From positions 1-64,000 of the forward strand of contig NZ_JAJKFT010000010.1 of assembly GCF_020966755.1 (NCBI RefSeq): a stretch of DNA of 64,000 nucleotides. The letters run 5' to 3'. This DNA is from Blastopirellula sediminis. GTDB taxonomy: Bacteria; Planctomycetota; Planctomycetia; Pirellulales; Pirellulaceae. Position 1 is the stretch's first letter; every line of letters starts with the position of its first letter. The notes under the pieces are model-generated. The model did not search any database, was not told the origin of the DNA, and saw only the letters and a list, made by a program, of their open reading frames with translations. Positions 30,840 to 45,165 of this stretch are shown here, piece after piece. Both the position numbers and the translations under genes were made by a program.

Positions 30840-32543
30840 ATGACTCTTTACACATCGCTTCAACAAACGAAGAACGCGCTGCTTGCCGCGCAAATCGGGA
30901 TCCAGGTGACGGGCAATAACATTGCCAACGTCAATACGCCCGATTATCTGCGCGAACGAGTCATCTATACCCCTGCGCCGACGCAAAAATATGGCGGCTT
31001 GCTCCTTGGCATGGGGGTGCAGGTCGAAGGGGTCGTTCAACAGGTCGACCATTTTCTCGAAGAACGCCTCCGCAACTCGACCAGCGATCTCGCCAACGGC
31101 GAAACTCAGGAAAACGTCTATTTACAGCTTGAGGCGCTGATCGGCGAACTAAGCGATACTGACATCAGCTCGTCGCTCAATGATTTCCTGGGAAGCATCA
31201 ACGACATCCTGAACCAGCCGGAAGACGTCGGCGTTCGCAACTTGTCGGTCCTCCGCGGTCAGACGCTAGCAGGCGACATCAGCCGCTTATACAGCCGCGC
31301 CAAAGAGATTCACACCGATCTCAATAAGCAAATCAAACAATCGGCCAGCGACATCAATTCGCTGCTCAACGATATCGCCGATTTGAACGTCAAAATTACG
31401 ACGCTGGAAGCGGGGCCGGTCACCAAGAGCGACGCGATCGGTCTCCGCGATCAACGGCAACGCAAATTGACCGAACTGGCCAAGATTATCGACATCAAAG
31501 GGGTCGAGCAGGAGAACGGCTCCGTTTCGGTCTTTCTCGGCGGCGAATACCTGGTTATCGATGGCATTGCACGGCAGGTCGAAACGAAAACGGTCGCCGA
31601 AAACGGCCTGAACAACGTCAAGCTGACGCTCGCCGGAACCGACTCCCCGATTCAGGTCAACTCCGGCAAATTGAAGGGGTTGATCACCTCTCGCGACGAT
31701 ATTGTCGGCGACTTCCTGGGCAACCTGGACGATTTCGCTCGATCGTTGATCTTCGAGTTCAACCGCGTCTTCTCCAGCGGTCAAGGGGAAACCGGTTATC
31801 AGTCGATGACCAGCGAATTCTTCGTCGACGAGTCGGCGATCAACGAGCCGCTCGATCAGGCCGGACTCACCTATACGCCGGTCAACGGTTCGTTCAAGGT
31901 CTACACCCTGAACACGGAAACCGGCCTGACCAAGACGGTCAACATCCCGGTCAAATTAAACGGGTTGTCGGACGACACGTCGCTGCAAGATATCGCCGAT
32001 GCGATCAACAACATTGATGGCCTGTCGGCGTCGATCTCGCTGGACGGACACCTGCAAATCGCCAGCGATTCGGAGAACGTCGAGTTCGCCTTTGGGGACG
32101 ATACCAGCGGCGCGTTGGCGGCGCTCGGGCTGGGAACGTTCTTTACCGGCACATCGGCCAGCACGATCGGCATCCACGACGCGATCAAAACCGATCCGTC
32201 CAAGTTCGCCGCTAGCAAAAACGGCATCGGCGTCGACACCGACAATGCGGTCGATCTGGCCGGATTTTTGGATCGCCCGCTCGATAGCCGCAACGGACAA
32301 ACGATCGACAACATTTACTCGCAATTGGTCGGCGACGTGACGCAGTCGGCTTCGGTCGCCAAGTCGGTGGCCGAAGGATACCGCGTTTTCAAGGAAACGC
32401 TGGATGGGCAAAAGCAAGGGCTCAGCGGCGTCAGCCTCGACGAAGAAGCGGTCAACCTGATTACTTTCCAGCGTCAATTCCAAGCGGCGTCCCGATTGAT
32501 TTCGGTTATCGACGAACTGTTGGAAGTGCTGGTGAACCTATAA
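30840..32543 (+). CDS. flgK: flagellar hook-associated protein FlgK (HAP1)
   Basis: First hook-filament junction protein, 567 residues. N-terminal LYTSLQQTKNALLAAQIGIQ with NNIANVNTPDYLRER, central region with GLRDQRQRKLTELAKIIDIK, and C-terminal SGVSLDEEAVNLITFQRQFQ with AASRLISVIDELLEVL are typical. Residues about 349-430 form a module like the flagellin hook IN motif (SLQDIADAINNIDGLSASIS). No cysteine is present in the whole protein. Unlike FlgL, FliC and FliD it does not carry the 100-residue repeat domain. Confidence 0.95.
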   Translation: MTLYTSLQQTKNALLAAQIGIQVTGNNIANVNTPDYLRERVIYTPAPTQKYGGLLLGMGVQVEGVVQQVDHFLEERLRNSTSDLANGETQENVYLQLEALIGELSDTDISSSLNDFLGSINDILNQPEDVGVRNLSVLRGQTLAGDISRLYSRAKEIHTDLNKQIKQSASDINSLLNDIADLNVKITTLEAGPVTKSDAIGLRDQRQRKLTELAKIIDIKGVEQENGSVSVFLGGEYLVIDGIARQVETKTVAENGLNNVKLTLAGTDSPIQVNSGKLKGLITSRDDIVGDFLGNLDDFARSLIFEFNRVFSSGQGETGYQSMTSEFFVDESAINEPLDQAGLTYTPVNGSFKVYTLNTETGLTKTVNIPVKLNGLSDDTSLQDIADAINNIDGLSASISLDGHLQIASDSENVEFAFGDDTSGALAALGLGTFFTGTSASTIGIHDAIKTDPSKFAASKNGIGVDTDNAVDLAGFLDRPLDSRNGQTIDNIYSQLVGDVTQSASVAKSVAEGYRVFKETLDGQKQGLSGVSLDEEAVNLITFQRQFQAASRLISVIDELLEVLVNL

Positions 32544-32665: not shown

Positions 32666-35600
32666 ATGACTCGAATCGTACCGGTCCCGACTACCCGCGT
32701 AAGCGACGGCAACTTGCAGAGTCGCTTGCTCTCGCAATTAGCGGCGAGTCAGGCCAGCCTATTCAATCTGCAGAACCAGCTCAGCACTGGCCGCCGTCTG
32801 CTTGCGCCGAGCGACGACGCTCCGGCGGCGATTCGCGGCATTACGCTTCAGTCGCTGATCGAACGCAAAACGCAGATCAGCGTCAACCTGACGACCAGCC
32901 AGTCGTATCTCTCGGCGACCGACACCGCGATGGCCGGCGCTGCGGACCTGCTTTCCGAAATGCGCGGCCTGGCGGTCATCATGGTCGATTCGACGGCGAC
33001 CGATACGGAAGTCGCCGCCGCCAGTCAGCAGTTTCAAAACGCCCTGCAACAATTCCTGGACATCGGCAATCGCCAGTTCCGCGGTCGCTATCTCTTCGGC
33101 GGCTCGAACACGACGACGACTCCCTTTACCTTGAAGAACGGGCTCGTCACCTACAACGGCAACACGAACGGACTGAACAGCTTCGCGGACGTCGACTTGC
33201 TGTTCGACACCACGGTCAACGGAAACACCGCCTTCGGCGCGATCTCGCCGGAAGTCAAAAGCAAGATCGACCTGAACCCGGTCCTGACCTTGGACACGAA
33301 ACTGTCCGACCTGCGGGGCGGCGCCGGCATCGCCAAGGGGAGCTTCGTCATTTCGGACGGCACGAATCCGGTGACGATCGACATTCGCTCGGCCGAAACG
33401 ATTGGCGACGTGATCAGCTTGATCGAGCGAAATCCGCCTCCGGGACGGAAAATCACGGCGCGAATCGATAACAACGGCCTCAACATCGACATCGACGACG
33501 CCGGCGGCGGCAACCTGACGATCCGGGAAGAAGGGGGAAGTCACGTCGCCGCCCAGCTCGGAATCTTGAAGACCAACGGCAACGGCGTGAATCCGATTGA
33601 AGGCGCCGACCTCAACCCGATCATCACCAAGGCGACCAAGATCTCCGATCTGCTTGGTTCACGCGCCCAGGCGATTATTTCGTACGCCGGGAATAACAAC
33701 GACATCGTTTTGAACGCCAAGAACAACGGCGCCGACGCGAACGGCGTTACGTTGAACCTGGTCAACGACGATCTTTTGCAAGCCAAGTCGGGACTCACTA
33801 AAGGGAACGAAGTCGTCAGCTTCGCCGAAGACCTGCAGCGTGCGCAAACGACGCTCGACCTGGATGGCGCCGGCAACAGTCTGCTGCTCACCGCCAACTC
33901 AACCGACGGCAGTCTCGACGGAGTCCATATCGTCTTCGACTCTTCGGCCGACATCGGCGACTCGGCCGTGATCGGTCCGACGACAACGATCAACGGCGTG
34001 AAGACGATCACCGTTCAAATCGACGATACCGACGAAACGTCGCTGCAAACGTTGTCCGACGCCTTTTTGGCGGATGGGCGGTTTTCGGTCGGTTTCGATA
34101 ACTCGACCGGCGAAACCTACAATCCGTCCAGTTCGGTACTCGCGACCAACAGCTCGAACACCTATACCGCCACCGTCTCGCAAACGGGAGTGAAGGCCCG
34201 CGCCGCCCTCCCCTTGTCCGGCGGCAACAACGACTTGATTTTGACCGCCAATCAAGCCGGCATCGACTTCAACAACGTCAATATCGTGATCGACGCCTCG
34301 GGCGATATCGGCGACGCCGCGACGGCGACCTATACCGATGACGGAACGACGCGAACGTTGACGCTGTCGGTTGACGACAGCGACGAAACCTCGCTGCAAA
34401 CGTTGATGAACGCGATCATCGCGGAAGGGAGCTTCTCGGTTCGGCCGGACAACTCGAACGGCAACACGTTCAATCCGTCGTCGTTCGTTTCTTCGGTCGA
34501 CGACGGTCCGATCGGCAACACCGGCAATAGCGGCGGGGATGAGAACGCGATCTTCGTCCGGGTCGACGCCGATCGCACCAACGCGAATCACCTGGTCAAC
34601 GCGCTGAACAACAACGCGAAATTCAGCGAACTCTATTCGGCCGAAATCGACGAACACGACACGGTCTCCGACTTTCAGCGCGGCTCCGGACTGGTTGACC
34701 TGACCGTGACCGGCACGTTTCAAGGAGGCAGCGGCGCCGACTTTGACGCCGAGTCCGGCCTGCAGATCACCAATGGCGGCGAAACGCAGGTAATCACGCT
34801 GGAAGACGCCGAGACGGTCGAAGATCTGCTCAACATTCTCAATGGCGCCGGTCTGGGCGTGTTGGCCGAGATCAACTCGGCCGGTAGCGGCATCAACCTC
34901 CGTTCCGTGGTGAGCGGCGGCAATTTCAGCATCGGCGAGAACGGCGGCACGACCGCGTCGCAATTGGGACTCCGCACCTTCAGTGAGTCGACGCTTTTGA
35001 GCTCGTTGAACTTCGGGCTGGGCGTGAATACGACCGACGGGACCGACTTTACGATCACGCGTAACGACGGCAAACAACTGGAGATCGACCTCTCCAGCGC
35101 CAAGACGGTCGGCGACGTCCTCAATCTGATCAACAACCATCCGGATAACCAGGACGGCAGCCCGGTCGTCGCCAAGCTCGCCGACTTTGGCAACGGCATC
35201 CAACTGATCGACGACAATCCAGACGGAATCGGTCGTCTGACGATTGAACGGGACAACCTGAGCACGGCGGCCATCGATCTTGGCCTGATGCCGGAAGGGG
35301 CGTTGATCGCAACCGTTTCCGATTCGCCGACCGCGACGCCGGCTGCGGCGACCGTCGAATTCACGCCTCCCGGCGACACCAACAACGCGATTCAAATCAC
35401 GGCGAATCTTCCCGGCACGACCTTCAACAACGTACAGGTCGAATTCGTCAACTCCGCCGCCTCCGGCGACCAGGCGATCGTCAACTACGATCCGACGACG
35501 AAGAAGTTAACGATCGACGTCGATCCGGCGGCGACCACCGCGAATACGGTCATCGCTGCGATCAACGCCGAGGGAACCTTCTCAGCCGATCTCTCCGTTA

Positions 35601-36397
35601 CCAACGACCCGACGAATAACGGCACTGGGCTGATCGCCGACACCGGCGTTCTCGCCGCGACCAACGGAGGAACGCCGGTCGCAGACGCCGAACCAGCCAC
35701 GGCGTCGGTTTCGTTCGCATCGCCGGAAAACCTGAACACCGGGTTTACGCTCGAATCGCTTTATCCCGGCACGCGGCATAACGACGTCCAGATCATCTTC
35801 ACCGACACGCTCACCTCCGGTTCGCCGACCGCCGTCTACAACTCGGGAGCGAAAACGCTGACGGTTTCGATCGACGCCGGCGTGACGACGACCGCCGATA
35901 TCGTCAACGCGATCAACCTTGAAGGGACGTTTCACGCCGAACTTGACCGGAGCGTCGACACGACGAACAACGGAACCGGCACGATTTCGGCGACCGGAAC
36001 CGTCGGCACGACTTCGGGAGGGACCGCGGAAGTCTTGTCGGGCAAGGACGTCAATCTGCGAGAGACGAAGAGCGTGTTCAACACGCTAATCAAACTGAAC
36101 GAAGCGATCGTCGATCGCGATTACGTCCAGATCAGCCGGCTCGTCGAGTCGCTCGACGCCGATCTGTCGCGACTTAGCTTCTCCCGCGGAGAGTTGGGGG
36201 CTCGTTCGCAAAACGTCGATTTGCTGAAAACGCGGCTCGACGACGACATGATCGAATTGCAGGCCAACCTCTCCGCCGAGATCGACGTCGACTTCGTTGA
36301 AGCGGCGTCCAACTTCGCCGCTCAGCAAGCCTCTTACCAGGCTTCGTTGCAGACAATCGGTCAAATCTATCAACTCTCGCTGCTCGACTATCTCTAG
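32666..36397 (+). CDS. flgL: giant flagellar hook-associated protein FlgL (HAP3) with repeats
   Basis: Second hook-filament junction protein. The ends are those of FlgL: N-terminal SLFNLQNQLSTGRRLLAPSD with IGNRQFRGRYLFGGS (about 133-147), and the C-terminal coiled coil from about 1135 (ETKSVFNTLIKLNEAI to SYQASLQTIGQIYQLSLLDY). Between them about 1000 residues are inserted; typical FlgL has 300-500. The insert alternates hook-IN-like modules (about 215-280, 700-750 and 795-850) with at least four copies of a ~100-residue Asp/Asn/Thr-rich domain (393-500, 512-606, 894-1002, 1011-1120). No cysteine is seen. The ~120-base gap before it has no clear promoter. Only the terminal parts can be assigned with certainty; the insert is probably solvent-exposed. 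Confidence 0.88.
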   Translation: MTRIVPVPTTRVSDGNLQSRLLSQLAASQASLFNLQNQLSTGRRLLAPSDDAPAAIRGITLQSLIERKTQISVNLTTSQSYLSATDTAMAGAADLLSEMRGLAVIMVDSTATDTEVAAASQQFQNALQQFLDIGNRQFRGRYLFGGSNTTTTPFTLKNGLVTYNGNTNGLNSFADVDLLFDTTVNGNTAFGAISPEVKSKIDLNPVLTLDTKLSDLRGGAGIAKGSFVISDGTNPVTIDIRSAETIGDVISLIERNPPPGRKITARIDNNGLNIDIDDAGGGNLTIREEGGSHVAAQLGILKTNGNGVNPIEGADLNPIITKATKISDLLGSRAQAIISYAGNNNDIVLNAKNNGADANGVTLNLVNDDLLQAKSGLTKGNEVVSFAEDLQRAQTTLDLDGAGNSLLLTANSTDGSLDGVHIVFDSSADIGDSAVIGPTTTINGVKTITVQIDDTDETSLQTLSDAFLADGRFSVGFDNSTGETYNPSSSVLATNSSNTYTATVSQTGVKARAALPLSGGNNDLILTANQAGIDFNNVNIVIDASGDIGDAATATYTDDGTTRTLTLSVDDSDETSLQTLMNAIIAEGSFSVRPDNSNGNTFNPSSFVSSVDDGPIGNTGNSGGDENAIFVRVDADRTNANHLVNALNNNAKFSELYSAEIDEHDTVSDFQRGSGLVDLTVTGTFQGGSGADFDAESGLQITNGGETQVITLEDAETVEDLLNILNGAGLGVLAEINSAGSGINLRSVVSGGNFSIGENGGTTASQLGLRTFSESTLLSSLNFGLGVNTTDGTDFTITRNDGKQLEIDLSSAKTVGDVLNLINNHPDNQDGSPVVAKLADFGNGIQLIDDNPDGIGRLTIERDNLSTAAIDLGLMPEGALIATVSDSPTATPAAATVEFTPPGDTNNAIQITANLPGTTFNNVQVEFVNSAASGDQAIVNYDPTTKKLTIDVDPAATTANTVIAAINAEGTFSADLSVTNDPTNNGTGLIADTGVLAATNGGTPVADAEPATASVSFASPENLNTGFTLESLYPGTRHNDVQIIFTDTLTSGSPTAVYNSGAKTLTVSIDAGVTTTADIVNAINLEGTFHAELDRSVDTTNNGTGTISATGTVGTTSGGTAEVLSGKDVNLRETKSVFNTLIKLNEAIVDRDYVQISRLVESLDADLSRLSFSRGELGARSQNVDLLKTRLDDDMIELQANLSAEIDVDFVEAASNFAAQQASYQASLQTIGQIYQLSLLDYL
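33842..34483 (+). repeat. tandem pair of ~100-residue domains in FlgL (copies 1-2)
   Basis: Residues 393-500 and 512-606 repeat the pattern LxLTANxxGxxxxxVxI then a beta-rich half with VDDxDETSLQTL, then FSV and NPSS. Both copies share DETSLQTL and YNPSS/FNPSS, which are missing from the other copies, so this pair looks like a recent tandem duplication. Confidence 0.75.
35345..36025 (+). repeat. tandem pair of ~105-residue domains in FlgL (copies 3-4)
   Basis: Residues 894-1002 and 1011-1120 repeat NAIQITANLPGTTFNNVQVEF-like and TGFTLESLYPGTRHNDVQII-like strands, a KKLTIDV/KTLTVSI strand, then TxxIVxAIN, EGTF and TNNGTG, closing with a Gly-Gly pair. The two share TNNGTG and EGTF and form a second duplication separate from copies 1-2. 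Confidence 0.75.
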
Positions 36398-36477
36398 TCC
36401 GCCGCGGCTCAAGAAGATTTAGCGAGCGGCCTTCTGCGCCGGATGTTCGGATTTTATGGATTCGCCCTCCCCCGGCG

Positions 36478-36485
36478 GCCGATAA
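36478..36485 (+). promoter_or_regulatory. candidate sigma-28 -10 box before fliW
   Basis: GCCGATAA equals the flagellar sigma-28 (FliA) -10 consensus and lies 75 bases before the fliW start. A TAAA-type -35 box at the usual distance is not clear (TGGA at spacing 17), so the box alone is the evidence. Confidence 0.4.
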
Positions 36486-36559
36486 TTCAGAATGTTAGAA
36501 ATTGGGTCGCCGACAGGGCGAACTGCCAGCAATGCATCACTGTTCGAGATGTTTCGACC

Positions 36560-37000
36560 ATGGATATCTACACGGCTCGCTTCGGAAAGCTCGAAATCGC
36601 GGATGAAGACGTGATCTTGTTCGCGGACGGCTTGATCGGTTTCGAACACCTGGTCAACTGGATTCTGCTGTCGGACGAAAAGTCGGAAGATCTGGGCTGG
36701 CTGCAATCGCTTCAGCAGCCGGAAGTCGCGCTGGCCGTCGTCAGCCCGCGTCGTTTCGCCCCGGAATACCGGGTACGGATGGAAAAAGAAGAGTCTTCGC
36801 CGCTCCGTCTGACGGCCGACGACGAAGTCTTCGTGCTGACCATCGTCAGCAAACATGACGACTCTCTGACGATTAATCTACGCGCGCCGGTCGTAATCAA
36901 TCTGACCAAGCAACTTGGCCGCCAAATTGTGACGACGGACGAGCAGCCGCTGCAGTTTGAAATTCAAAGCGGCGCTTCTTATTACCGCAAAAGCGCCTAG
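36560..37000 (+). CDS. fliW: flagellar assembly factor FliW
   Basis: FliW binds flagellin and CsrA; in Bacillus subtilis free FliW sequesters CsrA and thereby allows flagellin translation. The start at 36560 gives MDIYTARFGKLEIADEDVIL and 146 residues; an upstream Met at 36443 is in non-conserved sequence. Family motifs are LIGFEHLVNWILL, FAPEYRVRM near the middle and TINLRAPVVINLTKQLGRQI near the C-terminus. It is followed by csrA, the same neighbourhood in which the FliW-CsrA-flagellin circuit is known. Confidence 0.92.
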   Translation: MDIYTARFGKLEIADEDVILFADGLIGFEHLVNWILLSDEKSEDLGWLQSLQQPEVALAVVSPRRFAPEYRVRMEKEESSPLRLTADDEVFVLTIVSKHDDSLTINLRAPVVINLTKQLGRQIVTTDEQPLQFEIQSGASYYRKSA

Positions 37001-37075
37001 TTCGCTCGAATCTGCAGGCGAAAGTCGGCGGTACATTCGTTTCCGCCGACAGAAGTCGACCATTGCTGCGGATAT

Positions 37076-37102
37076 TGAATGGCGACTCATCAAAGGCCGA
37101 TA
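37076..37102 (+). promoter_or_regulatory. candidate sigma-28-like promoter for csrA
   Basis: TGAA at 37076-37079 is followed by 15 bases and GCCGATAG at 37095-37102, one mismatch from the sigma-28 -10 box and at the consensus spacing. It lies 144 bases before csrA. Confidence 0.35.
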
Positions 37103-37245
37103 GATGCTACAGCGGCCGGCGCCGCGACAGCGATGCTATCCCGAATCAGGGCCGCTAGCTGACTACCGCTTAAAAGAAATGCCCTACCGTTGTCCGGCGT
37201 CGCCGTCAAACGGAATAGAACAGCGCACCGAGGAAGGAGCCTGAT

Positions 37246-37467
37246 ATGCTCGTCTTGTCGAGGCATCGTGACGAAAGCATCATGATCGGCGATAACATCG
37301 TGATCACGATCGTCGATATTCGTGGCGACAAAGTCCGTCTGGGGATCGCCGCCCCGCAAGATATCCCCGTCCACCGCCAAGAGGTGTACGAAGCGATTCA
37401 ACGCGAGAATCAACAAGCGGCGCGGTTGCAACCGAACGAAGCCGCCGCTCTCCGTAAGACGAAATAG
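37246..37467 (+). CDS. csrA: carbon storage regulator CsrA
   Basis: Small RNA-binding homodimer that blocks or stabilises target mRNAs by binding GGA in hairpin loops. The 73 residues begin [20 protein letters not shown], continue [20 protein letters not shown] and carry the RNA-contact Arg in [11 protein letters not shown]. The C-terminal tail is variable and charged ([10 protein letters not shown]). AGGAAGGAG at 37231-37239 is a strong ribosome-binding site. It stands between fliW and the long flagellin leader, which points to flagellin mRNA as a target. Confidence 0.95.
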
Positions 37468-37721
37468 TTCCGCGCCTCTCTCGCGCAACGAACTATCCCG
37501 CCCGATCGTCTTACCTATCGTAATCCGCTCAATGGCGCCTGGCCCGGCGCCTTTCTTTGTCGCTGCTGCGACCCTTTTCTTCACCCTCAAAAGCGCAATG
37601 CGTCGCTGCGGGTATGCGCAGCCAAAACGGCAAAAACGCCGGAATTCGACACTCTGTGATGGTCGTAACGCTTGAGACTATTACGTTCTCTAATCGCGCA
37701 AGGAAAACTTAGTCAATCACC

Positions 37722-37749
37722 TAAAGCGTCCAAGTTCGGGTGTCGATAG
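37722..37749 (+). promoter_or_regulatory. sigma-28-like promoter of flagellin
   Basis: TAAAG at 37722-37726 and GTCGATAG at 37742-37749 match the FliA consensus TAAA-N15-GCCGATAA with a spacing of 16 and two mismatches in the -10 box. A second CGATAG follows at 37755-37760. Flagellin is the classic sigma-28 target. Confidence 0.5.
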
Positions 37750-37959
37750 TCCTTCGATAGATGATCGTGTATAGGATCGGTCGAGCGCTGGCGAGAAATT
37801 CCTTCACCAGAGCGAAGCGGCAGGATGACCTGCAGGGGCAGGAAGCCTCCTGAAATGACAAACTAGAAAGGTGTGATTTGGGCTGCGTTTGCAGCCGACC
37901 GTTCCGATCAAACTATTTCCCCAGGCGTCGGACGGGCTTCAAAGTAGTCCCTGGATTTA

Positions 37960-37973
37960 GGAGGGGTGACTCC
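37960..37973 (+). promoter_or_regulatory. flagellin ribosome-binding site in a small hairpin
   Basis: AGGAGG at 37959-37964 lies 11 bases before the ATG and is the best ribosome-binding site of the region. GGAG (37960-37963) can pair with CTCC (37970-37973) around a six-base loop, so the site may be partly hidden and open to regulation by an RNA-binding protein such as CsrA. Confidence 0.4.
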
Positions 37974-37975
37974 CA

Positions 37976-40900
37976 ATGACCCGCATCAATACAAACGTAA
38001 GTTCGCTAGTCGCTCAGAAGAATTTGGGCCGCTCCAATGCGGACCTCAACACGACGCTCACTCGCTTGAGCACCGGTCTCCGCATTAACAGCGGTAAAGA
38101 CGATCCGGCCGGTTTGATCGCCAGCGAATCGCTCCGCAGCGATATCACCAGCGTCGAAAAGGCGATTACCAACAGCGAACGAGCCAACCAGCTGATCGCG
38201 ACCGCCGACAGCGCTCTCGGCCAGGTCAGCTCGCTGCTCAACGACATTCGCGGGTTGATTTCAGAAGCCGCCAATACCGGCGCCCTTAGCGACGATCAGA
38301 TTGCGGCCAACCAGCTGCAGATCGACTCCTCGCTCGAAGCGATTGACCGTATCGCTCAGGTCACCTCGTTCCAGGGCAAGCGTCTGCTGGACGGTAACCT
38401 CGACTTCATCACGCAGAACGTCAACAGCTCGGGCATCGAAGGCCTCCGCATCGACCAGGCCAACTTCGGTACGCAAAGCTCGATCGGCGTCGCCGTCAAC
38501 GTCGTGAAGCAAGCCACCCGCGCCACCCTCAACTACGGCTTCGGCGCCGTTGCCGACAATCTGGTTCTGGAAATCGGCGGCGCCAACGGTACGGAAGCGT
38601 TCAACTTCGCCAAGGGTTCGACGATCGAAGAAATCGCTTCGGCCGTGAACCTGGTTTCGGACGCCACGGGCGTGGAAGCGGTCGTCGAATCGGCCGCCAC
38701 GAAGGGCTCGCTCACCGTCAGCAGCTTCGGCGCCGACAATGACATCACGTTGACCGCCAACGAAGCTGGATTTGACGCGGGCGACGTCCGTATCAAGTAC
38801 ACCAAGGGTTCGACGACCACCACTTCGGCGACTTACACCGCTCCGGTCGGTGATGACCCGGCCAAGCTGGAAGTGACGCTCGGCGTTTCGGCCTATGTTG
38901 CGGCCTCGGTCACCGTCGACACCGCCGGTAACGACAACGCCTTCACCATCACCGCCAACCAGGCTGGCGCTGACGTCAACGGCATCCAGGTCATCCTGGA
39001 CAACACCGGCGCCAAAGGCGCGGAAACGGTCGACTACGATGCCGACGCCGGCACGTTGACGATCCACAAGGCCGCCACTTCGACCGGCGCCGAAATCGTC
39101 GCCGCGATCAACAACGCCGCCACTAACACCCAGGTCTCGGAACTGTTTACGGCCGCTCTGGTCGAAACGACCGGTCCTGGCGCCGGCGCCGGCGTCGTTG
39201 CTGCGACGGGCGCCGCGGGCACCTTCGCGGGCGGCGTGGACGGGGGCGACATCATCGCCACGGCCAACGACGTGATCGCTGCGATCAACGCTGCGACCGG
39301 CAACGACAAAGTGACTGCGTCTCTCGCCGCCGGCAACGACGGTCATGATACGGTCACCGAGTTCTCGAACTACGCCTACAGCGGCGTCGCCGAAGAAAAC
39401 AACCGTCTGCAATTCCTGGCGCCTGGCGATTCGCCGAACGTCCGCTTCGTCTCGAACGCCGGCAGCTCGCTCGGCATCGACACGACGACCGACCCCCGCG
39501 TCGAAGGTTTGTCGCAATCGATCATCCAGAACGACGACGCCAACGGTACGTTCTCGATCACGGCCAAGCTGAAGGGAACCGAATACGACGGTTACACGAT
39601 CAGCTTCGTGGACGACGCCAACCTGGCGGGCGGCGGCGACGAATTCGTCGTGCTCGACAAAGAGAATAAGACGATCGAGATTCACGCCGTCGATGGCGCC
39701 TCGACCGCCCAGAACGTCGTCGATGCGATCAACAACGACACCTACGTCAGCGACTTCTTCGAGGCCGAAAACTTCGGTTCCAGCGACGGTAGCGACGTTT
39801 TGGACTACTCTGAACTGACGATCCCGGCGGCGACGACCGGCGGTCTGGTCAGCGAAGGGACGTTGATCATCAACCTGGAAACCGATGAAGACGGCAACAT
39901 CAAGACGACCGCCAACGACTTGATCGCCTTCTTCGATGATCCGAGCCAATTTATCTCGGACGCTGGCGAAGCCGCTGCGGCCCTCGCCTACCTGCAAGAT
40001 CGCGGCATCAGCGTGACCAACGTCGGCGGCAGCGACGGCAGCGGCGTGTTGGCTCCGACCACGTCGGACATCTCGTTCGCGACCAGCGGCACCGAGCTGG
40101 AAGACGCTCAAGCCTCCGGCACGACCTATGCGGTCAACGGCGCCACGGCTCAGCTGACGTTCACGGCGATCAACTCGGGCGCCGACTACGACGGCGTCAC
40201 GGTTCAGTTCGTCAATGACGCGACCGTCACGGCCGGCGTCGACGAACGTGGCGAATATGACGCCGCCTCGAAGACCCTCACCTTCTACATCGAAGAAGGG
40301 GTCAGCTCGGCGGACGACATCAAAGCCGCCCTCGACGGCGACTCGACCCTGAGCCTGCTGTTCAGCGCCACCTCGGGCGGTACCGGCGTCGTCACCACCG
40401 ACGACACCGCGACCCTGACCGGCGGCGTGGTCGACAACGGTTCGACCGACGGCGCCGCGTTGCTCGGCAACTCGGACCTGGAAAACCTGGGCCTGACGTT
40501 CCAAGCCACTAAGTTCGGTTCGGATTCGTTCGTCAGCGTGAAGGCCCTCAGCGGCACCTTCAGCCTGACCGACCAGAACGGAACGACCGGGGTCGATCGT
40601 TCGACCGGCACCGACGTCGATGTCCGCATCAACGGCATCCAGGCGATCGGCGACGGCTTGAAGGCCTCGATCAACACCTCGTCGCTCGACCTGAGCTTCT
40701 CGGTCGGCGCCGATGTGGAAGACGGCACCAACTTCGACTTCCAAATCGTCGGCGGCGGCGCCTTGTTCCAACTCGGTCCGGACGTGGTCAGCAACCAGCA
40801 GGCCCGCCTCGGTATCCAGAGCGTCAGCACCGCCACCTTGGGCGGCGTCAGCGGCCGCTTGTTCGAGCTTCGCTCGGGCGGCAACAAGAGCCTGACTTCC

Positions 40901-41182
40901 GACGTCGGCGGCGCCGCGAAGGTTGTCGATGAAGTCATCAACGTGGTGACCTCGCTCCGCGGTCGACTGGGCGCCTTCCAGAAGACGACCCTGGACTCCA
41001 ACATCTACTCGTTGAACGATACTCTGGCGAACCTGACCGAAGCCGAAAGCTCGATCCGCGACGCCGACTTCGCCACCGAATCGGCCAAACTGACGCGAGC
41101 TCAGATTCTCGTCCAGTCGGGCACCTCGGTGTTGGGTATCGCCAACCAGAACCCGCAAAACGTGCTCAGCCTGCTCCGATAA
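37976..41182 (+). CDS. fliC: giant flagellin with inserted repeat domains
   Basis: Filament protein, 1068 residues against 270-500 in most bacteria. The N-terminal D0/D1 region (about 1-170: RINTNVSSLVAQKNLGRSN, LSTGLRINSGKDDPAGLIAS) and the C-terminal D1/D0 region (about 965-1068: GRLGAFQKTTLDSNIYSLND to ANQNPQNVLSLLR) are intact, so it should polymerise. About 790 residues in between are insert. A hook-IN-like module is at about 190-250, and three clear copies of the 100-residue domain lie at 320-420, 523-622 and 722-817, with a partial one from 253. No cysteine is present. It is followed by a strong terminator. Confidence 0.93.
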   Translation: MTRINTNVSSLVAQKNLGRSNADLNTTLTRLSTGLRINSGKDDPAGLIASESLRSDITSVEKAITNSERANQLIATADSALGQVSSLLNDIRGLISEAANTGALSDDQIAANQLQIDSSLEAIDRIAQVTSFQGKRLLDGNLDFITQNVNSSGIEGLRIDQANFGTQSSIGVAVNVVKQATRATLNYGFGAVADNLVLEIGGANGTEAFNFAKGSTIEEIASAVNLVSDATGVEAVVESAATKGSLTVSSFGADNDITLTANEAGFDAGDVRIKYTKGSTTTTSATYTAPVGDDPAKLEVTLGVSAYVAASVTVDTAGNDNAFTITANQAGADVNGIQVILDNTGAKGAETVDYDADAGTLTIHKAATSTGAEIVAAINNAATNTQVSELFTAALVETTGPGAGAGVVAATGAAGTFAGGVDGGDIIATANDVIAAINAATGNDKVTASLAAGNDGHDTVTEFSNYAYSGVAEENNRLQFLAPGDSPNVRFVSNAGSSLGIDTTTDPRVEGLSQSIIQNDDANGTFSITAKLKGTEYDGYTISFVDDANLAGGGDEFVVLDKENKTIEIHAVDGASTAQNVVDAINNDTYVSDFFEAENFGSSDGSDVLDYSELTIPAATTGGLVSEGTLIINLETDEDGNIKTTANDLIAFFDDPSQFISDAGEAAAALAYLQDRGISVTNVGGSDGSGVLAPTTSDISFATSGTELEDAQASGTTYAVNGATAQLTFTAINSGADYDGVTVQFVNDATVTAGVDERGEYDAASKTLTFYIEEGVSSADDIKAALDGDSTLSLLFSATSGGTGVVTTDDTATLTGGVVDNGSTDGAALLGNSDLENLGLTFQATKFGSDSFVSVKALSGTFSLTDQNGTTGVDRSTGTDVDVRINGIQAIGDGLKASINTSSLDLSFSVGADVEDGTNFDFQIVGGGALFQLGPDVVSNQQARLGIQSVSTATLGGVSGRLFELRSGGNKSLTSDVGGAAKVVDEVINVVTSLRGRLGAFQKTTLDSNIYSLNDTLANLTEAESSIRDADFATESAKLTRAQILVQSGTSVLGIANQNPQNVLSLLR
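38933..40426 (+). repeat. three ~100-residue repeat domains in flagellin
   Basis: Residues 320-420 (38933-39235), 523-622 (39542-39841) and 722-817 (40139-40426). Each starts FTITAN/FSITAK/LTFTAI with a DYDG or EYDG or ADVNG turn, runs through VxFVNDxxVTxG, a YDxxxKTLT strand, SADDIKxALDGD or AQNVVDAINND helix, FFEAEN/FSATS and ends in Gly-Gly. They are separated by about 100-residue spacers, unlike the contiguous copies in FliD. Confidence 0.8.
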
Positions 41183-41213
41183 GTTTCGGGCTGAACAACG
41201 CGAAATTACGAAG

Positions 41214-41243
41214 GCCTCCGCCAACTTTGGCGGAGGCTTTTTT
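41214..41243 (+). terminator. terminator after flagellin gene
   Basis: Ten-bp stem GCCTCCGCCA/TGGCGGAGGC (41214-41223 with 41228-41237), loop ACTT, then six T. It lies 31 bases after the stop codon of fliC and separates it from fliD, so fliD needs its own promoter. Confidence 0.92.
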
Positions 41244-41277
41244 GTTGCGCCATACCGCTTACCTAATCGTAATAAGC

Positions 41278-41306
41278 TGAAGATCTTACCGCCCGAACGT
41301 CGATAA
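41278..41306 (+). promoter_or_regulatory. candidate sigma-28-like promoter for fliD
   Basis: GTCGATAA at 41299-41306 differs from the consensus GCCGATAA at one base. TGAA at 41278-41281 stands 17 bases upstream, longer than the usual 15. A promoter is required here because of the terminator at 41214-41243. Confidence 0.4.
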
Positions 41307-41382
41307 ACGATGATGACGCTATCTGTCCATTTGACGTTAACGCAGGCCGCTTGGGCCGCCTGAGAAAGCGACGATCTCCCCC

Positions 41383-44300
41383 ATGGCAGGGATTAGCAGC
41401 ACTACTGGTCTTATTTCCGGCATCAACATTGTTGATACGGTAACGCAGCTGCTCAAGATTGAAGCCCGACCGCGCGACTTGTTGATCTCCCGCACGACGA
41501 CAGTCTCGAACGAACAAGGCGCACTCAGCAAGGTCACCGCGGCGATCCTTAGCTTGCAGTTCTCGGCGCAAGCTCTCGGCAAGACTTCGATTTTCAACAC
41601 GCGCACCGCGCAGACCAGCAACTCCACCGCACTTTCCGCCACGGTTACCGGCACGCCGCGGGTCGGCGTAACGCAAGTTACTCCGGTACGTACGGCACAG
41701 GCGCAGCAATACCTCAGCTCCGGCGTCTCCTCCCTCACCGAGGCGCTCAGCGCCGGCTCGATCTCGTTCAGCGCCGCTCCGCGACTCGACAGCGGGATCG
41801 AACTAAACCGGCTCAACGGCGGCGACGGCGTCGGGCCTGGCAAGATCAAGATCACCGACCGAGCGGGGGATACCGCCACGATCGATCTTCGCTACGCGAC
41901 CACGATCGACGACGTCCTCAACGCGATCAATAACAACGACGACATCGACGTCACCGCGACGATCGAGGGCGATCGGATCAAGCTGACCGACAATACCGGC
42001 CAGACGACCAGCAATCTGATCGTCAAAGAAGTCTCCGGCGGATCGACCGCCGCCGACTTGGGACTGCGCGACGTCAACGTCGCCGCCAGCTCATACGTCG
42101 GCAACGATATTTTCTCGCTCCATAGCGGCACGAAGTTAAGCGAACTGCGCGACGGAGCGGGCATTCGTCTTAGCAGCGACTTAGACGACCTGACGATCAC
42201 CTTTCGCGACGGCACGTCCCAGAACATCGGCCTGCGGCAGACCGCTCAACCCGAAGCCGCCGCAACCGCTTCGACCTCGACCTCCGATCCGAAATTCAGC
42301 ATCACGGCCAACAATGCCGGCGACGCTTACGATGGGGTGTCGGTCATCTTCCAAGACAACGGGTCCGTCACCCAGGGTAGCGAAACGGTCGTCTACGACG
42401 ATTTGGCGAAGACCATTACCGTCCAAATCGACAAAGGTTCGACCACGGCCGCCGACGTCATCAGTGCAATCAACAACGACGCGTCGGCCGGACTCTATTT
42501 CACCGCTGCGACGATTGACGGCGGAACGGGCAACGGCTTGATCGACACCGTCGATACCGCGATCACCACCGGCGGAACGGCGCTCTCTTCCGCGGTCACG
42601 ACGGCAGCCAACGCCAACGCCAGTATCGAGATCAGCGCCGTCAACGCCGGTGGCGACTACGACGGCGTACAGATTCTCTTCGTCGACGATCCCGGCGTCA
42701 GCAAGGGAAGCGAAACGGTCATTTATGACGACAGCGATCCCGGCAACAAGACGCTGACTGTCCACATCAAGGCCGGCGAAACGACCGCCGATGACGTGAT
42801 CGCGGCGATCAGCGGCGATCCGTTGGTGAGCCCGCTGTTTACCGCGGCGAACGTCGTCGGCAGCAACGGCGATGGCTTGATCGACGTCTCCGACACCGGC
42901 ACGACAAGCGGCGGAACCGCCAACGCCATCGGCATTTCGACCGCTCAATCGGTCGACAGCGTCGTCAAGCTTACGGCCAAGCAATTGGGGGGAGAGTACG
43001 ACAACGTAACGCTGCGATACGTTAACGACCCGGCCGTCACCGCTGGTAACGAAGTCGTCGAATATGACGACAGTGATCCTGACAACATCACGCTGACCGT
43101 CCGCATCCAACAAGGCGCGACCACGGCCGATAACGTCATCGCCGCCATCAACGGCAACGCCACGACGTCGGCTCGCTTTACCGCTGCGACCGCGACCGGC
43201 GGTAGCGGAGACCGGATTGTCGACGTCCTTAGCACCGCCGTTACGTCGGGCGGAGCCGCACGAGAGGAACGCTCGCCCCAATCGTTGGGAGACCTGCTGA
43301 CGATCTTCAATGAAGTCGATCCGACGCGATTGCAGGCGCAAATCTCGGCCGATGGCGATCGCATCGAATTGATCGACCTCTCGACGGACAACGGCGGATC
43401 GTTTTCCGTCAGCAGCTTTGGCGACGGCCACGCGGCCGAGGATCTCGGAATCGCGTTTTCGACCGCCAGCGACACGATTTCGAGCGGTCGCTACATCGGC
43501 GGGCTCAACTCCAAGTTGATCAGTTCGCTGAACGGCGGCAAAGGTTTTGACCTAGGATCGATCAAGATCACCGACCGCAGCGGCGCGACGGCGACGATCG
43601 ACCTGTCTGGCGCCGAGACGGTGCAGGACGTCTTGACCGCGTTCAACGATTCGGGACTGGGCATAGAAGCCGAATACAACACAGCCGGCAACGGCATCAC
43701 AATTCGCGACACGACTGGCCAGTTCTTCAGCAATTTCAAGATCGAGAACGCCGACGCCACCAATTCGGCGACCCAGTTGAACATCGCCGTATCGACCTCG
43801 CAGACGAAAGTCGAATCAGGCTCGCTCCATTTCCAATACATCAGTGAGCAGACGGAACTTGATTCGTTGAATGGCGGCAAAGGGATCACGCGCGGCAAGT
43901 TCATCATCAAGGACAGTGCCGGCGGCGCCCGCGTTTTTGACCTCTCCGGCGACACGATTAAGACCGTCGGCGACCTGCTCAACGCCATCAATAGCCAAAC
44001 CGGCGTCAAGGTCACGGCCGAAATCAACGCCACCGGCGACGGCATCAAGATCATCGACCAGGCCAACGGATCTGGCGAGTTGCGGATCCAGGACTCAGGA
44101 ACGACCGGCACGGCGACTTCGCTCGGCTTGCTCGGGACCGGTTCGATCGCCCAAGGGGACTCGAAACAGAGCATCGTCGGCACGTTCAACAAGACCATCC
44201 AGATCGAAGCCGGCGAAACGATCAACGACGTAATCACCAAGATCAACGACCTGGACGCTGGATTCTCGGCGAACGTCTTCGATTACGGCGCCGGTTCCGA

Positions 44301-45165
44301 GCGATATCGCATTTCGCTCACTTCGGACAAAACCGGCAGCGGCGGCAATTTCCAGATCGACTCTTCCAACTCGCAATTCGAATTTGATGAGACGGTGCGT
44401 GGGCAAGACGCCCTGCTCCTGTTCGGCTCGAACGCCAATGGATCGTCCGGGATTCTGACCACTTCGTCGACCAACACCTTTACCGGCGTCGTCGAAGGCC
44501 TTAGCGTCACGATCAAGGAAGCGACGAACACGCCGGTCAACATCACCGTTTCCGAATCAGACACGGCGTTAATCTCCGCCGCCAACTCGTTCGTCACGCA
44601 GTACAACGCGCTGGTCGACTTGATGGACGACTACACCTCGTTCAATGAGGCGGACAGCTCAACCGGCATCCTGTTCGGCACGAACGTCGCGAACCGGATC
44701 GACACGGAACTTGGCGAAATCCTCACAAAGCGTTACGCCGGTCTCGGCAGCATTCAATCGCTGCAGCAGCTTGGCTTCACCTACAACGATAGCGGCAAGC
44801 TGACGCTCGACACGACGAAGCTGCAACAAAAGTTTGCGGAAGACCCGGAGGCGGTCGAAGAGTTTTTCTTGAAAGAACAGACGATCAGCGGCGAGAAAAA
44901 GAAAATCGGGTTCGCACAACAGTTTGACGACCTGATGGAAGCGTTCGCGGGGGCGAATAGCTCGCTGCTTATCAGTCGAATCGAAGCGTTGCAAAGCAAA
45001 ATTGATTTGAATCAGTCGCGAATCGACGCCTGGAACGAAAAATTGGAACGTCGCCAGACAGTCCTGCTGAACCAATTTTATGACTTGGAGTCGACGCTCG
45101 CCAAGATCCAGACCAATACGCAGTACCTGAGTGCGATTCAGCCAATTACGATCCCCGAAAACTAG
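41383..45165 (+). CDS. fliD: giant flagellar cap protein FliD (HAP2) with repeats
   Basis: Filament cap, 1260 residues; usual FliD has about 450-700. The N-terminal segment GISSTTGLISGINIVDTVTQ with LLKIEARPRDLLISRTTTVS and the C-terminal region (SAANSFVTQYNALVDLMDDY, RIDTELGEILTKRYAGLGSI, then the coil IDAWNEKLERRQTVLLNQFY) are standard. Between lie hook-IN-like modules at about 143-212, 716-780 and 830-895, and three tandem copies of the same ~100-residue domain found in FlgL and FliC (303-399, 413-512, 524-624). No cysteine. The N- and C-terminal parts are sure; the role of the insert is inferred to be surface exposure. Confidence 0.92.
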   Translation: MAGISSTTGLISGINIVDTVTQLLKIEARPRDLLISRTTTVSNEQGALSKVTAAILSLQFSAQALGKTSIFNTRTAQTSNSTALSATVTGTPRVGVTQVTPVRTAQAQQYLSSGVSSLTEALSAGSISFSAAPRLDSGIELNRLNGGDGVGPGKIKITDRAGDTATIDLRYATTIDDVLNAINNNDDIDVTATIEGDRIKLTDNTGQTTSNLIVKEVSGGSTAADLGLRDVNVAASSYVGNDIFSLHSGTKLSELRDGAGIRLSSDLDDLTITFRDGTSQNIGLRQTAQPEAAATASTSTSDPKFSITANNAGDAYDGVSVIFQDNGSVTQGSETVVYDDLAKTITVQIDKGSTTAADVISAINNDASAGLYFTAATIDGGTGNGLIDTVDTAITTGGTALSSAVTTAANANASIEISAVNAGGDYDGVQILFVDDPGVSKGSETVIYDDSDPGNKTLTVHIKAGETTADDVIAAISGDPLVSPLFTAANVVGSNGDGLIDVSDTGTTSGGTANAIGISTAQSVDSVVKLTAKQLGGEYDNVTLRYVNDPAVTAGNEVVEYDDSDPDNITLTVRIQQGATTADNVIAAINGNATTSARFTAATATGGSGDRIVDVLSTAVTSGGAAREERSPQSLGDLLTIFNEVDPTRLQAQISADGDRIELIDLSTDNGGSFSVSSFGDGHAAEDLGIAFSTASDTISSGRYIGGLNSKLISSLNGGKGFDLGSIKITDRSGATATIDLSGAETVQDVLTAFNDSGLGIEAEYNTAGNGITIRDTTGQFFSNFKIENADATNSATQLNIAVSTSQTKVESGSLHFQYISEQTELDSLNGGKGITRGKFIIKDSAGGARVFDLSGDTIKTVGDLLNAINSQTGVKVTAEINATGDGIKIIDQANGSGELRIQDSGTTGTATSLGLLGTGSIAQGDSKQSIVGTFNKTIQIEAGETINDVITKINDLDAGFSANVFDYGAGSERYRISLTSDKTGSGGNFQIDSSNSQFEFDETVRGQDALLLFGSNANGSSGILTTSSTNTFTGVVEGLSVTIKEATNTPVNITVSESDTALISAANSFVTQYNALVDLMDDYTSFNEADSSTGILFGTNVANRIDTELGEILTKRYAGLGSIQSLQQLGFTYNDSGKLTLDTTKLQQKFAEDPEAVEEFFLKEQTISGEKKKIGFAQQFDDLMEAFAGANSSLLISRIEALQSKIDLNQSRIDAWNEKLERRQTVLLNQFYDLESTLAKIQTNTQYLSAIQPITIPEN
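42289..43254 (+). repeat. three tandem ~100-residue repeat domains in FliD
   Basis: Residues 303-399, 413-512 and 524-624. Shared elements are a start strand (SITANNAG, EISAVNAGG, KLTAKQLGG), then YDG or YDN, VxFxDxxxVxxGxE, VYDDxxxxxxxTVxI, GxTTADxVIxAIxxD, FTAA and a closing SGG or TGG. The three follow each other with 10-14 residue linkers, so this is the cleanest tandem array of the domain in the window. Confidence 0.85.

Follow-up and report, generated by a model that had tools for sequence, protein, structure and literature searches.

A repeat domain shared by FlgL, flagellin and FliD of Blastopirellula sediminis, with copies apparently nested within one another

The insertion of outer domains into flagellar proteins is already known (PMC5072837, PMC5595980; statements on the papers cited here refer to the passages available from each). 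In FliD, Head 2 is an insertion in a loop of Head 1 (eLife 2016, PMC5072837), FlgL and FlgK have a D2 β-sandwich in common (PMC6155364), and flagellinolysins carry a foreign domain in the flagellin variable region (PMC5595980, PMC7643111). Here we describe a domain of about 108 residues, termed R2, that is shared by FlgL, flagellin (FliC) and FliD, which follow one another along the flagellar axis in that order (PMC6155364), in a flagellar locus of Blastopirellula sediminis (order Pirellulales, phylum Planctomycetota). The locus lies in a stretch of 64,000 nucleotides, referred to below as the window (assembly GCF_020966755.1, contig NZ_JAJKFT010000010.1, positions 1 to 64,000).

Like the flagellinolysin insert R2 is an inserted domain, but the former is a catalytic metallopeptidase described for flagellin, and for FliD Head 1/2 and FlgL/FlgK D2 host and guest are not described as one family joined at one turn. 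Thomson et al. 2018 (PMC6248924) report giant flagellins and thick filaments in two gammaproteobacteria and list Blastopirellula marina as a giant-flagellin species; FlgL of B. marina DSM 3645 (locus L103, fetched with a FlgL alignment) is 85% identical to that of the window. The DE region of Oceanospirillales described in that paper likewise recurs within the variable region of giant flagellins, but it is reported in flagellins only and in tandem, whereas R2 occurs in FlgL, FliC and FliD and is also nested; the two are set apart here by description. The same paper leaves open whether duplicated domains fold contiguously or split, a question that can now be put to the test in a single protein in which both modes seem to occur. 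Nesting of the form A1-B1-C-B2-A2 is treated in general by PMC13114784, whose main text has no word beginning 'flagell', and PMC7018530 describes high flagellin diversity in Planctomycetes, with no passage on an R2-type domain found in the text available. Among open-licence papers we found no report of one family in FlgL, FliC and FliD that is nested in itself at one turn.

All four flagellar proteins of the window (FlgK, FlgL, FliC and FliD) are named by Pfam/NCBIfam, and three of them have the R2 domain in common, which confirms the proposal of an initial annotation of the window that FlgL, flagellin and FliD share one domain of about 100 residues. With only the three FliD copies as input, the starting profile (iteration 0) recovers FliC residues 511–624, 711–818 and 307–421 (59, 56 and 33 bits) and FlgL residues 880–1003 and 1011–1120 (39 and 33 bits); four further FlgL stretches reach just 9–16 bits with it. 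The final iterated model drifted into the hook IN modules of these proteins, also matching an IN stretch of FlgK at 36 bits, and therefore a later model with 108 positions, made of 160 full copies (from the window and from 40 fetched regions), and an alignment of 94 copies (A3; alignment A1 holds eight) were used afterwards. The 160-copy model contains neither the two weak FlgL full copies nor the FlgL half copies described below, and still finds them, at 25 and 41 bits and at 24 and 28 bits respectively (E<0.001 in 100,000 sequences). Over the whole 7.05-Mb genome A3, whose rows include the full copies of the window and none of the halves, gives 19 matches at E≤1, confined to four flagellar open reading frames (ORFs): FlgL (6), FliC (5), FliD (3) and a second flagellin on contig C4 (5). 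We count 12 R2 domains in the window, with five in FlgL (one split host, two guests and two tandem copies), four in FliC (a probable split host, its guest and two others) and three in FliD. The annotated count of four, three plus a partial one, and three was close to this, although it parsed the copies wrongly; that FlgK of the window has no R2 had been correctly observed.

As the annotation had suggested, R2 was compared with Pfam and a single copy was modelled. Pfam scans of R2 copies gave no convincing family, and the AlphaFold2 model of R2 copy 2 of FliD has a predicted local distance difference test score (pLDDT) of 93.8 and a predicted template modelling score (pTM) of 0.85. The fold predicted from this one copy is compact and β-rich with a single helix, in the order β-β-β-β-β-α-β-β. 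R2 is acidic overall (D+E 11.9%, K+R 3.7%) and contains cysteine at only 6 of 9843 residues.

Some R2 matches span only the first or the second half of the model. In the window FlgL, two such halves (residues 335–388 and 626–688) are assigned to one host, and two full copies (394–497 and 516–612) lie between them as guests. Among 151 R2 proteins that remained of 181 after removal of near-duplicates, all 31 first halves have a full copy after them and 43 of the 44 second halves have one before them; half-full-half patterns number 27, compared with a mean of 7.0 and a maximum of 14 in 2000 label shuffles. First halves stop at model positions 39–54 and 39 of the 44 second halves start at 49–54. 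The break (model position 50) corresponds to the turn between strands 4 and 5 (44–48 and 56–61) of the modelled copy. In FliC of loci L121 and L107 there is a separate split site, at which a copy is cut at model position ~52 around a guest, and the cut copy groups with the copy at residues 513–623 of the window FliC. The window FliC itself has a weaker split host on either side of its first full copy.

The same FlgL site can be followed through 72 proteins (71 relatives with both ends, plus the window): it holds an intact R2 in 36, one guest in 27, two guests in five (the window and L103–L106) and no R2 in four. Both halves are detected at 21 of the 32 split sites, the C-terminal half only at nine, the N-terminal half only at one and neither at one (L111, assigned by position). 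On a 60-protein FlgK tree the split and intact states require at least five changes (quick tree) or six (careful tree), counted without separating gain from loss or from exchange between lineages, and a single clade of split FlgL sites is rejected in the analysis with the careful tree (p 6e-50). Living relatives with intact, once-filled and twice-filled sites form a sequence record of change in the size of flagellar outer domains.

R2 is also found inside or beside hook IN modules, which were examined in 17 of the 80 relative loci and the window with a 97-position profile built from these proteins. FliD proteins that lack R2 have at least four IN modules, and the second (IN2) is continuous in nine out of nine. 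In the window FliD, IN positions 3–40 lie at residues 246–287 and positions 40–97 at residues 632–690, with the three R2 copies between them (293–624), and these flanks align with four continuous relatives across the whole module. R2 precedes the rest of the interrupted IN2 in all four R2-bearing FliD; both parts of the module are recognised in the window and L104, and just the second in L108 and L146. In FlgL of L153 (443–3772) the third IN module is split by R2 at the same place as in FliD, IN 39/40. In FlgL more generally the sign of R2 insertion is weaker than in FliD: IN2 starts at position 10–22, just after the R2 host, in 13 of the 14 R2-bearing proteins, and at 2–3 in three of the four without R2 and at 11 in the fourth. 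At FlgL site 1 and in FliD IN2 the host is thus cut by a complete domain and is uninterrupted in relatives, the A1-B-A2 pattern of domain insertion, and the sequence order suggests a layering D1 > IN > R2 > R2. The initial annotation was right that the copies are real, and missed the split copies, the self-nesting and the insertion into IN modules.

Genome surveys covered the Planctomycetota. Within the Pirellulales, A1 matches at E≤0.001 in 115 of 196 genomes; across the phylum it matches in 6 of 294 (four of the six in the order) and A3 in 7 of 245, of which four lie outside the order and reach E 2.4e-8 at best. In 80 named loci, found through FlgL and hence biased towards it, R2 occurs at E≤0.01 in 100,000 sequences in 67 of 71 FlgL, 23 of 32 FliC, 5 of 16 FliD and none of 65 FlgK, ORFs with one end only being left out. 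R2 is also present in giant ORFs of L091 and L092 (within the order) and L095 (outside it), and in L094 with the eight-copy profile only. The ORFs L092 3127–20000 and L091 4238–19999 exceed 5000 residues within the fetched stretch and have 14 and 2 R2 matches respectively; PPC domains occur in a 2000-residue piece of L092 and Calx-beta domains in L095. As these giant ORFs are not classed as flagellar, R2 is not flagella-specific across the order. No R2 relatives were found on plasmids, and tblastn of single copies for phage relatives gave one record each (E=9 and 0.06).

R2 probably serves the axial proteins of the Pirellulales flagellum as a structural bulk module on their exposed side, with which the flagellar exterior is built outwards. 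Its copies lie in the variable middle of FliC and, in FlgL and FliD, within or next to IN modules; they occur in tandem and, in FlgL and FliC, also in the β4-β5 turn of another R2. Each R2 host would fold from its two halves around the guest and, because these proteins run out and back, the R2 that is inner in sequence would be radially outer, so that nesting would add layers outwards and tandem copies would give lateral bulk. On this view the R2 surfaces of junction, filament and cap would resemble one another chemically, being acidic and poor in cysteine. The job of R2 is most likely mechanical or architectural and not catalysis or calcium binding; it may be to make the filament thicker and stiffer and to let neighbouring subunits meet in compatible outer contacts. 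Calcium binding had been put forward in the annotation and is not borne out: the DxDxDG motif is absent from 94 R2 copies, and the conserved positions are chiefly small and hydrophobic residues, a Thr where the helix begins and two isolated Asp. The sole D-x-D/N-x-D-G noted, near FlgL residue 849, lies within an IN module. That junction, filament and cap proteins have one outer domain in common suggests that selection may act on the filament surface as a whole.

Several points weigh against this reading. The folding of hosts around guests, and likewise any effect on stiffness or thickness, is predicted from sequence; the FlgL host halves reach just 18–44 bits; the host halves of the window FliC score weakly (E 0.0015 and 0.02), with a break that could fall anywhere in 44–61; and R2 also occurs in the giant ORFs, which are not classed as flagellar.

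The exposed position of the R2-bearing flagellar proteins is compatible with an adhesion or shielding module for surface attachment or for avoidance of phages or predators, a function that is possible though unlikely. The position is established knowledge of these proteins, and both the presence of R2 in giant, probably extracellular ORFs and the difference in copy number between relatives favour such a role. Against it, Pfam matches of the 94 copies are weak and scattered (for example, a lectin domain in 2 of 94, best E 7e-4), and the conserved columns look structural.

A bolder form of the structural reading, which we hold to be doubtful, would have one R2 coat run from junction through filament to cap in matched layers, grown radially by self-nesting (D1 > IN > R2 > R2) at the same turn in different genes, with a fold, and perhaps an ancestry, in common with the phage sheath domain. 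PF17481 (Phage_sheath_domII) belongs to contractile tail sheaths, whereas R2 is carried by FlgL, FliC and FliD in the window and elsewhere also by giant ORFs. None of eight copies taken singly reaches the PF17481 cut-off of 31.4 bits (best 19.3, over nearly the full length), and among 94 copies four match at E≤0.1 (best 0.0015); over 149 Planctomycetota genomes PF17481 gives two matches at E≤0.001, none above the cut-off. In profile comparison with four sheath proteins the best probability is under 1%, with R2 12–36 aligned to the start of the sheath middle stretch. Searching the PDB by sequence with eight copies gave two sheath chains (E 0.098 and 0.11) among 12 matches, and with 94 copies no sheath among 54 matches (best OspA, 0.013); the sequence support for a sheath link is therefore unstable. 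A link to the sheath domains of phage tails is nevertheless raised here and can be tested.

That R2 is simply the hook IN motif (PF07196, Flagellin_IN) rediscovered, or a divergent version of that motif, is improbable. The motif, known from FlgK, FlgL, FliC and FliD, is likewise repeated in axial proteins and has a strand-helix-strand like that of R2 44–87; the iterated profile drifted into IN modules, and in profile-profile comparison six IN sets match R2 with 35–80% probability. These matches are confined to positions 44–87, however, leaving the first half of R2 unmatched, whereas IN sets match one another at 99.7–99.9% over 86–89 columns (that of FlgK at 71%), and a full-length likeness of R2 to the IN modules of the same proteins was not found. 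Three other IN-type sets (FlgL_b, FliC and FlgK) match R2 at 6–11%, with reversed controls up to 7.4%. R2 does not reach the PF07196 cut-off (22.7 bits): one of the eight window copies touches PF07196 (E=0.15), and for the 94 copies this family is absent among the 25 listed out of 36. The whole FliC does exceed the cut-off with two stretches, the better of which, 198–250, lies outside R2, and IN modules are separate neighbours in FlgL and FliD that serve as hosts of R2, one FliD IN module being interrupted by it. By these comparisons R2 is distinct from the hook IN motif, despite a resemblance in its second half, and the shared domain is not merely that motif recovered anew, a concern raised in the annotation.

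It is similarly improbable that the half copies arose by decay or truncation of tandem repeats rather than forming one domain folded around a guest. Their low scores and the common tandem copies in the same proteins would fit such decay, and the nested folding is itself deduced. The halves, however, complement each other at a single position and lie on either side of full copies, with the same FlgL site intact in half of the proteins, and they retain the conserved positions across relatives. A tree was built of 102 copies taken from the window and 18 other loci (109 columns), with 49 of its 99 inner branches left open. All nine reassembled FlgL hosts fall there in an 11-row group (support 91) that stands apart from the guests and also takes in an intact copy and a further FlgL row; a single clade of FlgL hosts is not rejected by the approximately unbiased test (p-AU 0.77).

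Recent transfer between neighbouring genes by gene conversion seems more improbable still. In the same tree copies mostly follow gene and position, with a single clade rejected for FliC (p-AU 0.008), which indicates at least two groups of FliC copies, and not for FlgL (0.15) or FliD (0.50); one 34-row group (support 99) combines 27 FlgL rows with seven FliC rows, four of which are FliC guests. The six best matches of the L121 and L107 FliC guests in a 130-copy flagellar set are all FlgL copies, a further point in favour of transfer; with 'other' ORFs included, however, the nearest copies of three FliC guests are one each from FlgL, FliC and an 'other' ORF. When the nearest copy in other loci is taken for 344 copies, it is of the same gene for 142 of 145 FlgL non-guests, 24 of 25 FlgL guests and 51 of 52 FliD copies (193 of 197 FlgL and FliD non-guests). 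Window copies have mean identities of 28–47%, so any transfer among them would be old, and they have no long near-identical DNA in common, the longest shared DNA family being two copies of 107 nt at 74%. Most R2 copies thus appear to be positional orthologs inherited within their gene. For FliC non-guests the nearest copy is FliC in 74 of 102, FlgL in 15, FliD in nine and an 'other' ORF in four, which, with the rejected single clade, makes some between-gene movement likely, mainly into FliC. The annotated spread of the module between the three genes is hence supported in part, mainly for FliC. The nearest copy of 11 of the 17 R2 copies in 'other' ORFs, mostly the giant L092, is FlgL; the donor of FliC copies may have been a giant protein.

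Convergence of Asp/Asn/Thr-rich composition, to which these Asp/Thr-rich proteins might seem prone, can be dismissed, as the annotation had argued from FlgK: the final iterated model scores the ten full copies (all in its training set) at 54–94 bits and the best of 804 shuffled or reversed controls, scored with that model only and not with iteration 0, at 9.3 bits, the FliD-only profile finds FliC and FlgL copies at 33–59 bits, the neighbouring FlgK has no R2, and the modelled copy has one confident fold.

Table 1. Flagellar genes of the window and the R2 and IN elements of FlgL, FliC and FliD.
Feature	Position	Strand	Evidence
FlgK	30840-32543		Pfam/NCBIfam
FlgL (1243 aa) of the hook-filament junction; 5 R2 domains, 3 IN modules	32666..36397	+	TIGR02550 200 bits
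FlgL IN module 1	33281..33565	+	IN profile 94 bits
FlgL R2 host, N-terminal half (model 2-49)	33668..33829	+	24 bits; E=1.5e-5 whole genome
FlgL R2 guest 1, inside host	33845..34156	+	25 bits, model without that copy
FlgL R2 guest 2, inside host	34211..34501	+	41 bits, model without that copy; E=9.2e-7 with A1
FlgL R2 host, C-terminal half (model 51-107)	34541..34729	+	28 bits; E=3.3e-8 whole genome
FlgL IN module 2, main part (IN model 10-97); R2 host at N-terminal edge	34712..34972	+	52 bits
FlgL IN module 3	34976..35287	+	94 bits
FlgL R2 tandem copy 1	35357..35674	+	39 bits FliD-only profile; 111 bits 160-copy model
FlgL R2 tandem copy 2	35708..36025	+	33 bits FliD-only profile; 100 bits 160-copy model
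FliC flagellin, 1068 aa	37976..41182	+	Flagellin_N and Flagellin_C
FliC probable R2 host, N-terminal half (model 3-44)	38717..38836	+	E=0.0015; C4 paralog likewise, E=8e-4
FliC R2 guest	38906..39238	+	33 bits FliD-only profile; 76 bits 160-copy model
FliC probable R2 host, C-terminal half (model 61-101)	39260..39367	+	E=0.02; weak alone
FliC R2	39512..39844	+	59 bits FliD-only profile; 106 bits 160-copy model
FliC R2	40118..40429	+	56 bits FliD-only profile; 97 bits 160-copy model
FliD filament cap, 1260 aa	41383..45165	+	FliD_N and FliD_C
FliD IN module 1	41785..42066	+	98 bits
FliD IN module 2, N-terminal part (IN 3-40)	42118..42243	+	19 bits; flanks align with continuous IN2 of four relatives
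FliD R2 copy 1	42259..42579	+	112 bits
FliD R2 copy 2, modelled copy	42586..42918	+	116 bits; AlphaFold2 pLDDT 93.8
FliD R2 copy 3	42934..43254	+	100 bits
FliD IN module 2, C-terminal part (IN 40-97)	43276..43452	+	34 bits
FliD IN module 3	43510..43785	+	89 bits
FliD IN module 4	43840..44130	+	92 bits

Between FlgL and FliC are two ORFs that, from their translations read by eye, we take to be FliW-like (36443-37000) and CsrA-like (37246-37467); FliW and CsrA are the usual control pair of flagellin translation. At FliD residues 846–878, inside an IN module, the Pfam family OTU1_UBXL scores 23.2 bits against a cut-off of 22.7, probably a false positive. The second flagellin of the genome, on contig C4 (L063 4897-8106), is 90.5% identical to FliC, with 98–100% identity over residues 1–150 and 78–96% over residues 450–850, and has the same R2 layout, weak split host included. 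FliC residues 706–1068 strongly match phrog_16088 (3e-31), a phage-library family of unassigned function that perhaps represents a flagellin-like protein filed among phage proteins.

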